From Paenibacillus azoreducens (GTDB taxonomy: Bacteria > Bacillota > Bacilli > Paenibacillales > Paenibacillaceae): DNA of 64,000 bases. The stretch covers positions 2,075,501 to 2,139,500 of the forward strand of contig NZ_AP025343.1 of assembly GCF_021654775.1 (NCBI RefSeq). The letters run 5' to 3'. Below the pieces are notes generated by a model, which was not told the origin of the DNA, did no database searches, and was given only the letters and a program-made list of their open reading frames with translations. Numbering within the stretch: position 1 is the stretch's first letter; the number at the start of each line of letters is the position of its first letter. The position numbers and the translations under genes are program-made. Positions 30,893-36,261 of the stretch are shown here, one piece after another.

Positions 30893-31825
30893 GTGGCAAA
30901 CGAGGAACACAATCATTTGGAAAAGGATGAAGCCGGTACGAACGATCATGAGCAAGCAGAATCTTATGCCGATGTAGAGCTTCTGCCGACAGGCATAAAA
31001 AATGACGACTCCGTGCGCATGTATCTGAAGGGAATCGGCCGCGTCGGCTTGCTGAGCGCGGAGGATGAAATTAATTTGGCCAAGCGGGTTGCCGAAGGGG
31101 ATCAAGAGGCAAAAAAAATAATGGTGGAGGCCAACCTGCGCCTGGTTGTCAGCATTGCCAGACGTTATGCGGGACGGGGAATGCAGCTTCTCGATTTGAT
31201 TCAGGAAGGGAATATGGGTCTGATCAAGGCTGTCGATAAGTTTGATTATACAAAAGGTTTCAAATTCAGTACTTATGCGACATGGTGGATCAGACAGGCG
31301 ATCACGCGGGCGATTGCCGATCAAGGCAGAACGATCCGTATCCCTGTCCATATGATCGAAACGATCAACAAGCTCACTCGCGTCTCCAGACAACTGGTAC
31401 AGGAATTGGGACGCGAACCCGAAGTAGAGGAGATTGCGCGTGAAATGGAGATGAGCGTGGAGAAGGTTCGGGAAATCATGAAGATTTCACAGGAGCCGGT
31501 CTCGCTTGAAACGCCGATCGGGGATGAAAATGATTCCAAGTTGGGCGATTTTATCGAAGATCATGACGCGCTTGCTCCCGTAGACTCCGCTGCTTATAAA
31601 TTTTTGAAAGAGCAGCTCGGCGACGTGCTGGATACGCTAACGGAGCGGGAAGAAAACGTGCTTCGTCTTCGTTTTGGGCTGGAGGATGGCCGTACGCGGA
31701 CGCTTGAAGAAGTAGGCCAGGTGTTTGGCGTAACGCGGGAACGGATTCGCCAGATTGAAGCCAAGGCTTTGCGCAAATTGAGACATCCCAGCCGAAGCAA
31801 AAGGTTGAAAGATTACATCGAATAA
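30893..31825 (+). CDS. SigA-like (group 2) RNA polymerase sigma factor
   Basis: This 310-residue sigma-70 protein has region 1.2 ([22 protein letters not shown], about 38-60), regions 2.1-2.4 ([26 protein letters not shown] through [24 protein letters not shown]), region 3 and region 4.2 with [22 protein letters not shown]. Promoter-reading helices look like those of housekeeping SigA/RpoD. The family's primary factors are about 370 residues with an acidic region 1.1; here only about 40 N-terminal residues precede region 1.2, and dnaG is not adjacent. I infer a second, non-essential primary-like sigma. GTG 30893 has AGGGGGAGGG upstream. It is monocistronic. Confidence 0.88.
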
Positions 31826-31870: not shown

Positions 31871-31900
31871 TTGACAACAATGGTTGTGCTCCTCTATACT
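31871..31900 (+). promoter_or_regulatory. Strong promoter of the ABC-F leader transcript
   Basis: Perfect TTGACA (31871-31876), 18 bases, TATACT (31895-31900). It lies 46 bases after the sigma gene, so transcription of the leader and ABC-F gene can be independent. Confidence 0.75.
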
Positions 31901-32012
31901 GTGGCTTAGTTGCGAGTTTTTTCTTGCACCCGGGCATATGTATCCGTCACTGCAGATTAAGCTTTCGCATATCATGTTTTATGTAAATTAACTGATATGA
32001 GGTGGAAAGGAA

Positions 32013-32054
32013 ATGGAAAAAGTATCAACTGTTCTTGTAAGAGTATTGGCTTAA
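32013..32054 (+). CDS. Leader peptide of 13 residues
   Basis: ATG at 32013, seven bases after GAGGTGG, encodes MEKVSTVLVRVLA and stops with TAA. It is Val/Leu-rich and sits in the 5' part of the attenuator; its codons overlap the left arm of the 32028/32091 inverted repeat. It is probably a regulatory uORF whose translation speed matters more than its product. Confidence 0.6.
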   Translation: MEKVSTVLVRVLA

Positions 32055-32135
32055 GACGGGAGAAGTCTGCCCTTTTTTAACAAGCCATCTCGAGAACAGT
32101 CGATATGATCCGAATCCTTTCTTACTCTGAAATAA

Positions 32136-32186
32136 AAAGTGGGTAAAGTGGGTAAGGTGAGTTCGCCTTACCCACTTTTTGTTTTC
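32136..32186 (+). terminator. Attenuator terminator before the ABC-F gene
   Basis: AAAGTGGGTAAGG (32145-32157) pairs perfectly with CCTTACCCACTTT (32166-32178) and is followed by TT-G-TTTT. The left arm is tandemly duplicated (AAAGTGGGT twice), allowing two registers. The ABC-F start is 109 bases downstream. Confidence 0.85.
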
Positions 32187-32294
32187 TGCTAACAGAAAAA
32201 GAAAAAAAGCATATTCATTCAATTTCATAACGTCTGTTTCTCCGGATGGCTTTCGTTTGTGAAGCAAATCGAAACCAAAAGGAGAGAAAAAAAG

Positions 32295-33842
32295 ATGAGT
32301 ATTTTAAACGTTACAGATTTGACGCATATGTATGGCGACCAGATGACATTCCAACGCTTGAATTTCCGGTTGCTCCCTGGAGAGCATGCCGGCCTGGTCG
32401 GCGTTAACGGCGCTGGCAAGTCGACCTTATTCCGTCTGCTTACAGGCAGCCTGCTGCCGGATGCGGGCTGCATCGAATGGTCGCCGCAGGCAAAGGTTGG
32501 ATTTTTGGAGCAGCATATCAGCCTGCAGGCGGGAATGACCATCAGAGAGTATTTGGAGCAGGCGTTTTCGCATTTGTTTGCGATGGAAGCGGAAATGAAC
32601 CGTTTAGCTGCACAACTTGCAGAGCCTGGGGATCAGCTTGAAATCCTTTTGCGCAAATACGGAGAACTGCAGGCTGCGCTGGAACATCATGAGTTTTACC
32701 GGATTTCCTCCAAAATCGAAGACATCGCTTCCGGTCTGGGCATCACCGACCTGGGGCTCGACAAAGACGTAAGCAAGCTGAGCGGCGGGCAAAAAACCAA
32801 ACTTCTGCTGGCTAAGCTGCTGCTGGAAGAGCCGCAGGTGCTTTTGTTGGACGAACCGACCAACTACTTGGATAAGGTGCATATCGAATGGCTCACCGGT
32901 TATTTGAAACGTTACCAGCATGCTTATATCGTCGTTTCCCATGACGAGCATTTCCTGAACGAAATTACGACCGTGATCTTTCACTTAGCGCATCAAAATA
33001 TCAAACGTTATCCCGGCAATTACCGGCAGTTTCAAAAGGAACTGGCGTTGGGGCAGGTCCAGCAGCAGACGGCGTACGAGAAGCAAACCAAGGAGATTCA
33101 AAAACTGGAAGACTTTATTGATAAAAATCGGATCCGCAAAGCCAAGCAGGCGAAAAGCCGCGAGAAAATGCTCAGCAGAATGGTCCGGGTGGAGAAACCA
33201 ACGCATGGCCCTTCTCCGCGTTTTATGTTCGAGCTGCCGGGAGCTTCGGCTGGAGCGGCGGTTTTCGAAACGAAACAACTGCAGGTAGGTTATGACCGCC
33301 CCCTGTTCAAACCATTGTCGCTGAGGGTACGAAGAGGCGACAAGATCGCGATTGTCGGCGAAAACGGCGCCGGCAAGTCAACGCTGGTGAACACGCTGCT
33401 TGGCCATCTCAAACCGCTGGGCGGGGACTTACTCGTTCCAGAGCTGCTCCAAACGGCTTATTACCGCCAAGAGGACATCGCGCCGGCAGAGACGCCGCTT
33501 GTAAAGGTGCATTCGCTGCGGCCGGATCTGACGCACAAGGATATCCGTAAAGTGCTGGCGATGTCCGGACTTACGGCAGAACATATCATCAGGCCGATCC
33601 GGGCGCTCAGCGGCGGCGAGCAGGCCAAAGTGCGTTTGTCGGAACTGATGCTGACGCCAAGCCATCTGCTGGTTCTGGATGAACCGACGAATCATCTGGA
33701 CACGAGGGCTAAGGAAGCGCTGAAAAAAGGGTTGATGGAATTTCCGGGTACGGTTCTTCTGGTCTCCCACGAGCCCGCCTTTTATGAGGGTTGGATTACG
33801 GATGTTTGGAAAGTGGGGGAGTGGAGAAACGCCCGCGAATAA
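32295..33842 (+). CDS. ABC-F family ATPase (YfmM/VgaL-like ribosome factor)
   Basis: This 515-residue soluble protein has two ABC domains and no membrane segments: Walker A GVNGAGKST (37-45), LSGGQ (162-166) and LLLDEPTNYLD (184-194) in the first; GENGAGKST (355-363), LSGGE (438-442) and LVLDEPTNHLD in the second. The inter-domain linker (about 240-320, KLEDFIDKNRIRKAKQAKSREKMLSRM) is where ABC-F proteins reach the ribosomal P-site/peptidyl-transferase region. The sequence resembles B. subtilis YfmM. The attenuator upstream suggests inducible ribosome protection against PTC-binding antibiotics, but the antibiotic is unknown. ATG 32295 follows AAAGGAGAG. Confidence 0.88.
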   Translation: MSILNVTDLTHMYGDQMTFQRLNFRLLPGEHAGLVGVNGAGKSTLFRLLTGSLLPDAGCIEWSPQAKVGFLEQHISLQAGMTIREYLEQAFSHLFAMEAEMNRLAAQLAEPGDQLEILLRKYGELQAALEHHEFYRISSKIEDIASGLGITDLGLDKDVSKLSGGQKTKLLLAKLLLEEPQVLLLDEPTNYLDKVHIEWLTGYLKRYQHAYIVVSHDEHFLNEITTVIFHLAHQNIKRYPGNYRQFQKELALGQVQQQTAYEKQTKEIQKLEDFIDKNRIRKAKQAKSREKMLSRMVRVEKPTHGPSPRFMFELPGASAGAAVFETKQLQVGYDRPLFKPLSLRVRRGDKIAIVGENGAGKSTLVNTLLGHLKPLGGDLLVPELLQTAYYRQEDIAPAETPLVKVHSLRPDLTHKDIRKVLAMSGLTAEHIIRPIRALSGGEQAKVRLSELMLTPSHLLVLDEPTNHLDTRAKEALKKGLMEFPGTVLLVSHEPAFYEGWITDVWKVGEWRNARE

Positions 33843-34095: not shown

Positions 34096-36261
34096 TTGGA
34101 GCAAACTTTTCAAAGTGCCTATCAAGAGGAAAAACGAAGGCTGGATGCAACGATCGCGGAAATTGACAGACAGCTGCAGCGGCTGCGCAGCATTGAGGTT
34201 TATACCGGACATGATTTTACAGAGCAAGTGCTGGAGGCAGGACGCGAGGAGAAAAGACAAGCGTTGGCGAAAAGCCTGCCGGCCCCCTATTTCGGACGGC
34301 TGGATTTTCAGGGGGGGAAGGATTTGGAGCCAAGGCCGCTTTATATCGGCAAAATTGGCGTCGATCATGCTGAAATCGGCGAACAGCCGATGGTCATCGA
34401 CTGGCGTGCGCCGATCGCCAGCGTATTTTATTCCTTCACAGGCGGGGACGAGCCGGCAGCCTACGAGGCGCCGGAGGGCATCATCGAAGGGATGGTGTAT
34501 TTGAAGCGCAACTTGGTGATCCGTCAGCAGATTTTGGAACGGGTATCCGATACCTTCGACCGGAGCAGCGATCAGCCGGCCGTATCGGATGAGTTCCTCG
34601 TCTACCGGCTCGGCGAAAATAAAGACAACAAGCTGCGCGACATCGTCTCGACCATCCAGGCGGAACAGGACAAAATCATCCGTGCGGCCAAAAATACTGC
34701 CTTGATTATCCAGGGGGTTGCGGGAAGCGGAAAAACGACGGTGGCGCTTCATCGTCTTGCCTACTTGCTTTATCAATACAAGGAACAGATTACGGCTGAA
34801 AAAATGATTATTTTTGCGCCGAACCATATGTTCCTCGATTATATTTCCAATGTGCTGCCCGAACTTGGCGTGGCCGATATCCAGCAAAGCACCTTTGCGG
34901 ATTGGGCCTTGCAGCTGCTCGGAATCGAACTTCCGGTTGCGGACGCATCGGAAACGCTCGCTTACTGGTTCGAATCGGCAGGGGGCATGCCTGAAGTGAC
35001 AGACGAGGCTCCCGGCCGCTTCAAAGGCTCCATCGCGTTTATGAACATGGTTCGCGCCTGCGTGGAGTCCATGGAGAACGCTTCGGTGCCCGAAGCGGAT
35101 TTCATACCATGGGAAGGAGCGGTCCTTTCGCGCGATACGATCCTCCACTGGTTCCATGAGGAATATAAACCTTATCCTTTGGCCAAACGCAAGGAGCGGG
35201 TTATGGCAAGAATTCACCGCTGGATCGAGATGGAGCTGAAAAAGTCGCCATCGGCCACCGTGCTGAAGGAACGGAAGAAAAAAGCTTCCCAGCGCGAAAA
35301 ATCCTACGCATCCAAATGGCCGAAATATGAGCCGCTCATGCTTTATAAGATGATGTTCAAAGCAGCGAAAATGCAGGCAGGCTGGCCTGAAGAAGTGCTA
35401 AAGCCTATCCCTGGCGGCATCATGAAATCCACGCAAAAGGATTTGAAGCAAAACATCATTCGTGAAGAGGATCTGCCGGCGCTTCTGTATATGCATTATC
35501 TGCTGAACGATATTACGGGGGAACAGCGCTTCGACCATATCGTCATCGACGAAGCCCAGGATTTTTCCCCGTTCCAGGTTGCGGTGCTGGATCTGTTTGT
35601 CAAAGGCCATTCCTTTACCATTCTCGGTGATCTCTCCCAAGGCATTCATGCATACCGCGGCGTTCACGTCTGGGAGGAAATGAGTTCGCTCTATGCCCCC
35701 GACCAGACGGCCTATTTTGCGCTGACGCGCAGCTACCGGTCAACGATGGAGATCATCGAATTCGCCAACCGGATCTTGGAGAAGGGCGTGAAAAGCGATC
35801 TGCTGGCGGTGCCTGTATTCCGGAGCGGCAATCCTGTGCGATTGATTGCTTATGGAAACAAAGGGCAGCAGCGGGCCCAGGAGCTTCGCAAAGGGATGCA
35901 AAAGCTGTCCGCCGGCGAATACCGCACGGTCGCCATTTTGACCCGGACGCTCCAGGATGCGCAAGCGCTGTATGAGCGGCTACGGCCGGACATGCCGGAA
36001 CTGCATTTGATCGATGGCGCCAAAAAGGTGTACGAGGGCGGCCTCTCTATCCTGCCTGTATACCTGTCAAAAGGTCTGGAGTTCGATGCGGTCATCGTTG
36101 CGGATGCGGATGAGCAGCATTACGGCGCTTCGGCCTGGGATGCCAAGCTGCTGTATGTCGGCTGCACGCGCGCGCTGCATGAGCTGTGGCTCATGCATGA
36201 AGGTCCTTTGCCGGATTTTTTGCAAAATATGAATGAAGATATCGCGGTTGCAGGCTGGTAA
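34096..36261 (+). CDS. helD: RNA polymerase recycling motor HelD
   Basis: HelD is a UvrD-like superfamily 1 ATPase that removes stalled RNA polymerase from DNA or protects it from rifamycins. The 721-residue protein opens with the antiparallel coiled coil typical of HelD (QEEKRRLDATIAEIDRQLQRLRS), which enters the polymerase secondary channel. It continues with IGKIGVDHAEIGEQPMVIDWRAPIASVFY, Walker A GVAGSGKTT (207-215), HIVIDEAQDFSP (Walker B), TRSYRST and LSKGLEFDAVIV (motif V). TTG 34096 has AGGAGG upstream. It sits directly after the ABC-F gene in the same direction. Confidence 0.93.
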   Translation: MEQTFQSAYQEEKRRLDATIAEIDRQLQRLRSIEVYTGHDFTEQVLEAGREEKRQALAKSLPAPYFGRLDFQGGKDLEPRPLYIGKIGVDHAEIGEQPMVIDWRAPIASVFYSFTGGDEPAAYEAPEGIIEGMVYLKRNLVIRQQILERVSDTFDRSSDQPAVSDEFLVYRLGENKDNKLRDIVSTIQAEQDKIIRAAKNTALIIQGVAGSGKTTVALHRLAYLLYQYKEQITAEKMIIFAPNHMFLDYISNVLPELGVADIQQSTFADWALQLLGIELPVADASETLAYWFESAGGMPEVTDEAPGRFKGSIAFMNMVRACVESMENASVPEADFIPWEGAVLSRDTILHWFHEEYKPYPLAKRKERVMARIHRWIEMELKKSPSATVLKERKKKASQREKSYASKWPKYEPLMLYKMMFKAAKMQAGWPEEVLKPIPGGIMKSTQKDLKQNIIREEDLPALLYMHYLLNDITGEQRFDHIVIDEAQDFSPFQVAVLDLFVKGHSFTILGDLSQGIHAYRGVHVWEEMSSLYAPDQTAYFALTRSYRSTMEIIEFANRILEKGVKSDLLAVPVFRSGNPVRLIAYGNKGQQRAQELRKGMQKLSAGEYRTVAILTRTLQDAQALYERLRPDMPELHLIDGAKKVYEGGLSILPVYLSKGLEFDAVIVADADEQHYGASAWDAKLLYVGCTRALHELWLMHEGPLPDFLQNMNEDIAVAGW

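Follow-up and report, generated by a model that had tools for sequence, protein, structure and literature searches.

The locus at 31871-33842 of the DNA analysed here (the window, a stretch of 64,000 nucleotides of Paenibacillus azoreducens) raises the question of how an ABC-F gene lying behind a promoter, a short ORF and a terminator would be switched on, and by which drug. Our main reading, to which we give a probability of about 0.82, is that the leader would be a drug-responsive, ribosome-mediated attenuator with two outputs. Stalling on the upstream ORF (uORF) would free strand B both for an antiterminator and for a helix B:C, a 15-nt element would hold the RNA polymerase, and a peptidyl-transferase drug of the phenicol kind would be the most likely inducer; stalling, switch dynamics, pausing and drug relief by the ABC-F protein are the steps that we infer.

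Layout of the locus

The features of the transcription unit are as follows.

31871-31900, + strand: promoter TTGACA-18 nt-TATACT, 11 of 12 consensus positions
32000-32011, + strand: ribosome-binding region of the uORF, AGGTGGAAAGGA, doubling as outer 5' strand of helix A:B
32013-32054, + strand: leader uORF MEKVSTVLVRVLA (ATG 32013, TAA 32052-32054), inner 5' strand (A) of the anti-antiterminator
32058-32072, + strand: conserved 15-nt element GGGAGAAGTCTGCCC, putative sequence-specific RNA-polymerase pause
32073-32078, + strand: TTTTTT directly 3' of the 15-nt element, matching TTNTTT
32082-32127, + strand: strand B, partner of A (off) or of the terminator left arm and C (on)
32121-32127, + strand: CUUACUC, 5' side of the antiterminator predicted by the folding test
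32136-32153, + strand: tandem AAAGTGGGT, two copies (32136-32144 and 32145-32153)
32145-32178, + strand: terminator hairpin of 15 pairs, then the T-rich tail TTTTTGTTTT
32234-32252, + strand: strand C, partner of B (on) or of the ABC-F ribosome-binding region (off)
32264-32287, + strand: strand D, including the ABC-F ribosome-binding site AAAGGAGAG; 3' arm of the SD-sequestering hairpin, more weakly supported
32295-33842, + strand: ABC-F ATPase coding sequence, 515 aa, YfmM-subfamily paralogue (ATG 32295, TAA at 33842)

Most of what the preliminary description had noted here was recovered: the near-consensus promoter, the 13-codon leader ORF with a good ribosome site (AGGTGGAAAGG, immediately upstream of the ATG), the strong terminator, which is conserved in related leaders, and the two-domain ABC-F gene, whose product contains two ABC_tran stretches and ABC_tran_Xtn. 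The inverted repeat between 32028-32037 and 32091-32100 (10 pairs, one of them G-U) proved to be the centre of the longer helix A:B. The tandem left arm, described as an unusual detail, is a real duplication and is not a conserved one. Its second AAAGTGGGT copy was absent from all 17 other leaders in alignment A1, and the tandem is therefore a local duplication, giving the antiterminator an extra register (two registers) in this strain only.

Promoter-like sites in the region (4, vs 2.1 in shuffles) and terminator-like sites (3, vs 3.7) were not above chance, so that such scans alone prove nothing and conservation carries the proof. Promoter-like elements were seen by eye upstream of most relatives' leaders, and the leader at 31907-32190 folded better than 200 of 200 shuffles (z -6.3). 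No Rfam family reached its gathering score in the window; in the leader, 16 matches below threshold (best E 0.033) were chance-like, and Rfam membership was rejected. A mobile origin was also rejected, the window leader having no plasmid match by blastn and the pattern CGGGAGAAGTCTGCCCNTTT no match in viral contigs. The unit is flanked by a sigma-70-type gene (30893-31825) and, directly downstream of the ABC-F gene, by a UvrD-like helicase gene (34096-36261), which we take to be possibly HelD-like.

Conservation and exclusivity of the pairings

The pairings were derived from 18 orthologous leaders, with shuffles and slid partners as controls. With strand A taken as 31999-32052 and B, the terminator, C and D as listed above, helix A:B comprises 39 pairs with interruptions (31999-32052 with 32082-32127). 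Its duplex energy was equalled by none of 100 shuffles in 18 of 18 leaders and 87.7% of its cells were paired, against 37-52% with slid partners; its both-sided changes (9 pairs, 13 cells) were equalled by a slide of -1 (9, 14). For B:C, no shuffle out of 100 was as good in 16 of 18 leaders (4 of 100 were in L010 and L053) and 87.5% of cells were paired, against 34-55%; its further pair types were not above control, being reached by 404 of 500 shuffles. The terminator had 89.9% of cells paired, against 39-55%, and both-sided changes were counted in 19 of its cells (5.3 in shuffles). The weak one was C:D, since only 4 of 18 leaders beat all 100 shuffles and its count of both-sided changes was reached by 135 of 500 shuffles.

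In a held-out set of 41 leaders (2 not placed; none used to find the pairings; L088, a repeat of the training leader L010, and several near copies included), A:B beat 60 of 60 shuffles in 39 of 39 and B:C in 34 of 39. When strand A was removed, pairing of the terminator left arm with B rose in 18 of 18 leaders (in the window from 0.11 to 0.61), and in this folding test, which is thermodynamic and not kinetic, the antiterminator was exclusive with A:B and with the terminator in all 18. A telling case is L135, in which the uORF has GCU for ACU (Ala for Thr) and the partner strand is changed to GAACAGC.

The comparison of leaders that had been suggested found the uORF, A:B, the terminator and B:C conserved in the 18 leaders, and the uORF, A:B and B:C in further leaders as well; on sequence comparison, the element too is to be counted among the conserved parts. 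The covariation and the 39 further leaders argue for an attenuator of the vmlR kind that reads a ribosome on the uORF, as had been proposed. The preliminary description had not mentioned the B:C helix, the 15-nt element found in other leaders too, or the occurrence of this leader in front of CatB-like genes.

The uORF core [S/T][T/A/V]V was present in 64 of 64 loci examined, its translation being predicted; the conserved frame of L053 requires an ATG further upstream, which lacks a clear SD. Among 45 distinct uORFs (codons 6-7 were fixed by the search pattern and hence not counted), codon 5 was Ser in 42 and Thr in 3, codon 8 was Leu in 40 (through five codons), Arg in 3 and Gln in 2, codon 9 varied among 8 residues, and codon 10 was Arg in 44 (AGA 16, CGG 27, CGA 1) and Ser in 1. 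The AGA of Arg10 in the window pairs with strand B, and in L012-type leaders CGG was seen by eye opposite CCG. Arg10 being kept through both codons, peptide and pairing are both constrained.

Occurrence of the leader

The homologue search of genome contigs gave 30 loci, and the genus search covered 100 genomes. All 100 had ABC-F matches at about 46-50% identity, and 14 also had an ABC-F at 55-100%. A covariance model (R1), built from 18 leaders, found the leader in 15 of the 100, namely the same 14 with an ABC-F of at least 55% identity and G019, which has a frame-broken gene copy. It found the leader also in 26 of 295 family genomes (this ABC-F follows in 23, a CatB-like gene in 2, and 1 has no gene assignment) and in 10 of 299 class genomes, 2 of them already among the genus or family matches, every one before this kind of ABC-F. 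The same leader precedes the ABC-F gene in Bacillus paralicheniformis (L011). The paralogues L014-L016, L032-L036 and L054-L069 had no such leader in 315 nt of upstream text or by motif scan of the loci.

L108 was rejected, being a covariance-model match without a uORF, and at L190 the leader is present and no ABC-F reading frame was picked. In two assemblies the leader is kept before an apparently frame-broken gene, an ABC-F in G019 (L083) and an Erm-like one in G600 (L158); the latter scored 159 against a cut-off of 212 and has its N-terminal part in another frame.

Identity of the ABC-F protein

The gene had been called YfmM/VgaL-like. The resemblance to VgaL was not upheld (254 bits against the Vga model, cut-off 725), and the protein groups with YfmM-like paralogues. 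The YfmM-like group (A in the tree, with L054, L055, L060, L032 and L014) had 100/100 support, apart from VmlR-like and other ABC-Fs. The tree rows intended as B. subtilis-group YfmM were another ABC-F, and YfmM itself was compared by identity: it is 49% identical to the window protein and 59-60% to L055. The leader-bearing group had 2 changes in the tree, which does not support its monophyly.

Scores place the protein in none of the named resistance families: Vga, Lsa, Sal, Msr, OptrA and CplR gave 199-269 bits against cut-offs of 680-1450, whereas the broad model for ribosomal protection-like ABC-F (NF000355) gave 394 bits against 380. The closest solved relatives are PoxtA, YheS and EttA. 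Sequence scores were 300 bits for YheS, 253 for EttA and 245 for PoxtA, and the predicted structure (AlphaFold pLDDT 85, pTM 0.58) had PoxtA 7p7q as its best Foldseek match (E 4e-43, 31% identity). Aligned with YheS, the protein has a linker 2 residues shorter, so that a resistance domain reaching the peptidyl-transferase centre is unlikely. Against the main reading, B. subtilis YfmM is described as housekeeping in the available part of PMC11381351.

The 15-nt element

The element starts 3 nt after the stop of the window uORF, and the leaders of several other genes (CatB-like, Erm, Cfr, Mph-like and VmlR-like ones, and other ABC-Fs) share it in a relaxed form (GGGANNAGTCTGYCY). Searches used exact or near-exact patterns, with the reversed pattern as control. 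At order level the element was found in 27 of 246 genomes (control 0), at class level in 11 of 329 (control 1) and at family level in 38 of 167 (control 0); another search found it in 6 of 39 genomes (control 0). The 27 order loci comprised 22 YfmM-like leaders (at L109 the contig ends before the gene), 1 CatB-like and 4 that were not leaders, and the 12 class matches 8 YfmM-like, 2 Erm-like and 2 not leaders. The 39-genome search gave 9 loci, i.e., 3 YfmM-like, 5 of a third ABC-F type and 1 Erm. The family search gave 39 matches, from which 30 loci were retrieved and 29 read: 23 of a second ABC-F type, 3 YfmM-like, 1 Erm-like by eye (L185) and 2 without clear type. The matches read as not such leaders were L127, L128, L130 and L131 (order), L152 and L163 (class) and L195 (family); L128, L152 and L163 share flanking text ending AAACGGGAGAAGTCTGCCC and resemble copies of a coding repeat.

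With 3 mismatches allowed, four Bacillus genomes yielded 33 matches and the reversed control 31, so that most 3-mismatch matches are chance; the vmlR-like and Mph-like leaders come from this class. Matches with at most 2 mismatches numbered 6, 5 in leaders and 1 in a coding region, and include YfmM-like (L215), Cfr (L217), MFS (L221), Erm (L223) and another ABC-F gene (L219).

Three CatB-like genes (L106, L107 and L111) carry the same kind of leader, with the uORFs MSTVRASR, MPKTTTVRTRRFA and MLVLSTVRSRYLA, respectively. L111 has the same B:C helix; L106 and L107 are more diverged, and B:C of L106 was reached by 6 of 60 shuffles. The 296 order genomes contain 5 CatB-like genes, 3 with the leader; L137 and L140 had none in 430 nt of upstream text. 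The best family of these proteins is NF000490, at 310.5, 288.9 and 301.8 bits below the cut-off of 350, hence "CatB-like". In the genome of Bacillus sp. ISL-51 (G800), the element lies inside the uORF both of a Cfr gene (L217; 635 bits, cut-off 468; uORF MITVFR...) and of an MFS transporter gene (L221; uORF MEAVFRR...). The B. paralicheniformis gene L223 is an Erm (275 bits vs 212) and carries the element. Other genes with it are VmlR-like ones behind ATG-ATT-AAC-TAA (MIN; L214 and L240), a macrolide phosphotransferase-like gene (L231), the ABC-F gene L219 and an ABC exporter gene with the 9-codon uORF MYRRTIASN (L174, in G183). In the second ABC-F type (L201, L188, L184 and similar), found in many genus genomes, a long uORF runs in frame through the element (..GRSLSI..).

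The TTTTTT that follows the element is not conserved: among 145 element matches in the collected loci, 61 had CCCATTT and 24 TCCATTT. The window fits the NusG motif TTNTTT at 32073-32078, as not all relatives do, CCCATTT being commoner. The 15-mer was not found as a string in the main texts of the literature searched, and the search found no paper on such a shared element.

As to its function, the element has no fixed pairing partner across leaders. In Erm leaders the partner is the uORF and in the vmlR-like leader the SD region of the uORF, which could suggest that the element is conserved through pairing only and not as a pause signal. However, it folds on itself in L217, L219 and L221, and a strand kept for pairing alone should drift while this sequence stays constant; we consider pairing alone an unlikely explanation and take the sequence itself to matter. 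The element would then be a sequence-specific RNA-polymerase pause. AGUCU|G is its only Y-G step with a G ten bases back, as in the elemental pause consensus G-10, Y-1 G+1 given in the available text of PMC12288461, a fit that is weak alone, the consensus being loose; in L052 and L084 the presumed +1 base is A and not G. The vmlR account (PMC9226507), in its available part, maps NusG-independent pauses near the bottom of SL-1; in L214 the element forms the 3' side of the first hairpin at its base. Three other roles were rejected. A NusG pause hairpin (SL-2 of vmlR) does not agree with L214, where the element is at the first-hairpin base, away from the TTATTT motif; the AGAC of an AGAC/GUCU pairing is not kept (by eye); and a coded peptide does not agree with an element that follows the uORF stop in YfmM-like leaders and lies inside long uORFs in L181, L201, L217, L219 and L221.

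A wider proposal, which we put forward tentatively and at somewhat less than even odds, is that GGGANNAGUCUGYCY may be a portable, sequence-specific pause signal (G -10, U -1, G +1) that many unrelated genes for resistance to ribosome drugs have acquired in their leaders across Bacilli. The adjacent uORF would determine the drug, with STVL/TVFR/AVFR-like cores answering to phenicol-type drugs, RLR/RFR to macrolides and tripeptides to the lincosamide type, and the window gene would be an inducible, resistance-adapted branch of a housekeeping ABC-F subfamily.

Possible mechanism and inducer

In the off state, a ribosome would complete the uORF and depart, A (uORF and SD) would pair with B, and the terminator would form; in transcripts that read through, C:D would conceal the ABC-F ribosome site. 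In the on state, a drug-stalled ribosome would occupy A, leaving B free for the terminator 5' arm (the antiterminator) and for C, so that transcription would continue past the terminator and the ABC-F ribosome site would be exposed. The element would stall the polymerase just past the uORF, allowing the ribosome to arrive in time. Induction, its inducer, pausing and resistance by the ABC-F protein are presumed here.

A phenicol-type inducer is favoured over a lincosamide or pleuromutilin because of the YfmM-like grouping, PoxtA as best fold match, and the CatB-like and Cfr leaders, i.e., the same leader before CatB-like genes and TVFR in the uORF of L217. Ser/Thr at position 5 of the uORF, a possible penultimate position, fits the rule for chloramphenicol and linezolid (Ala > Ser/Thr as penultimate residue) found in the available part of PMC8987054. 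Against this, the conserved Arg10 is given no role, Ala, the best phenicol context, is rare in the uORF (1 of 45 at position 6 and none at position 5), and the CatB-like proteins are below the curated CatB cut-off (289-311 vs 350 bits). Arg10 would have a role if a macrolide-type tunnel drug worked the same switch by stalling the ribosome when Arg10 occupies the A site, the way tylosin acts on RYR of tlrB (PMC6851288, as far as the account goes). Arg10 in 44 of 45 distinct uORFs, the L096 uORF, which ends straight after it (MFFLSTVLKR), and R-x-R in the CatB-like leaders L107 and L111 are in line with this. On the other hand, R/K-X-R/K is missing from the window uORF and from most relatives, position 10 is Q, V or M in the distant families f46 and f40 (MFMSVVFQQVLA, MLKSVVLQQVLS, MRLSTVLQMVFG and MFTTVVLAVDLA), and the element-bearing Erm leaders carry RLR uORFs of their own, so that macrolide sensing takes another form; a macrolide inducer seems improbable.

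The lincosamide, pleuromutilin and streptogramin inducers first proposed are doubtful. Lincosamides, pleuromutilins or streptogramin A could stall initiating ribosomes, and a ribosome waiting at the start of the uORF would likewise keep the SD strand of A:B from pairing; the vmlR-like leader L214, with its uORF MIN, has the same element. However, the leaders for these drugs in the available part of PMC10201436 have uORFs of 3-4 codons (MIN, MRI, MK[L/Q] and MAGN), whereas codons 4-10, unneeded for initiation stalling, are conserved here, and we regard such an inducer as unlikely. A general translation-stress or amino-acid sensor (of charged Arg, Leu or Val tRNA) would suit a uORF rich in Val, Leu and Arg, and vmlR is also induced by general translation defects, as stated in the accessible text of PMC9226507. 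Yet no single regulatory codon is repeated in a row, the gene product is an ABC-F, and CatB-like, Erm and Cfr genes have the same leader or element upstream; a sensor other than a drug sensor is very improbable.

Comparison with known systems

By analogy, the window leader probably works like the dual attenuator of B. subtilis vmlR (Takada 2022, PMC9226507, in the part available), which shares a uORF in the anti-antiterminator, an antiterminator, an intrinsic terminator and an SD-sequestering hairpin opened by the switch, a hairpin that is putative in the window leader; the NusG-independent pauses of vmlR lie near the SL-1 base, where L214 carries the element. In contrast, the vmlR uORF has 3 codons (MIN) instead of 13 with a conserved inner motif, its NusG TTATTT motif sits elsewhere, and VmlR is an ARE2 protein instead of a YfmM-like one. 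For the others, the likenesses are likewise those of the available accounts. In the cplR leader of C. difficile (PMC10201436), uORF stalling couples transcription and translation attenuation before an ABC-F, as it would here, but the uORF is MR[I/M] and the terminator stem itself conceals the SD. The tlrB leader of B. subtilis (PMC6851288) shares a leader peptide, a terminator and, as putative features of the window leader, polymerase pausing between uORF and gene and an SD-sequestering hairpin; it differs in its 9-residue MIIQFIRYR, in tylosin and in its rRNA methyltransferase. The ermK/ermD leaders (PMC5418344, PMC8298421) would share transcription attenuation through a stalled leader ribosome, and the Erm leader L223 carries the element as the window leader does; they differ in their uORF MTHSMRLRFPTLNQ, in responding to macrolides and in the pairing of the element with the uORF. 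PoxtA (7p7q; PMC8987054) is alike in fold and short linker, but it is of a different family and is outscored by YheS and EttA in sequence.

This type of attenuator is already known; what would be new is its reach. A 15-nt sequence marking such leaders would make hidden inducible resistance genes findable by pattern alone, and makes the synchrony of polymerase pausing and leader translation testable. An ABC-F subfamily so far called housekeeping would come under apparent drug control, and a definite candidate for the drug is put forward. In the window's own genome, the element also stands before a second ABC-F gene of another type (L034, G000:C1:2183463-2185019), whose leader has GGGATCAGTCTGTCCATTT and a long GTG-started uORF.
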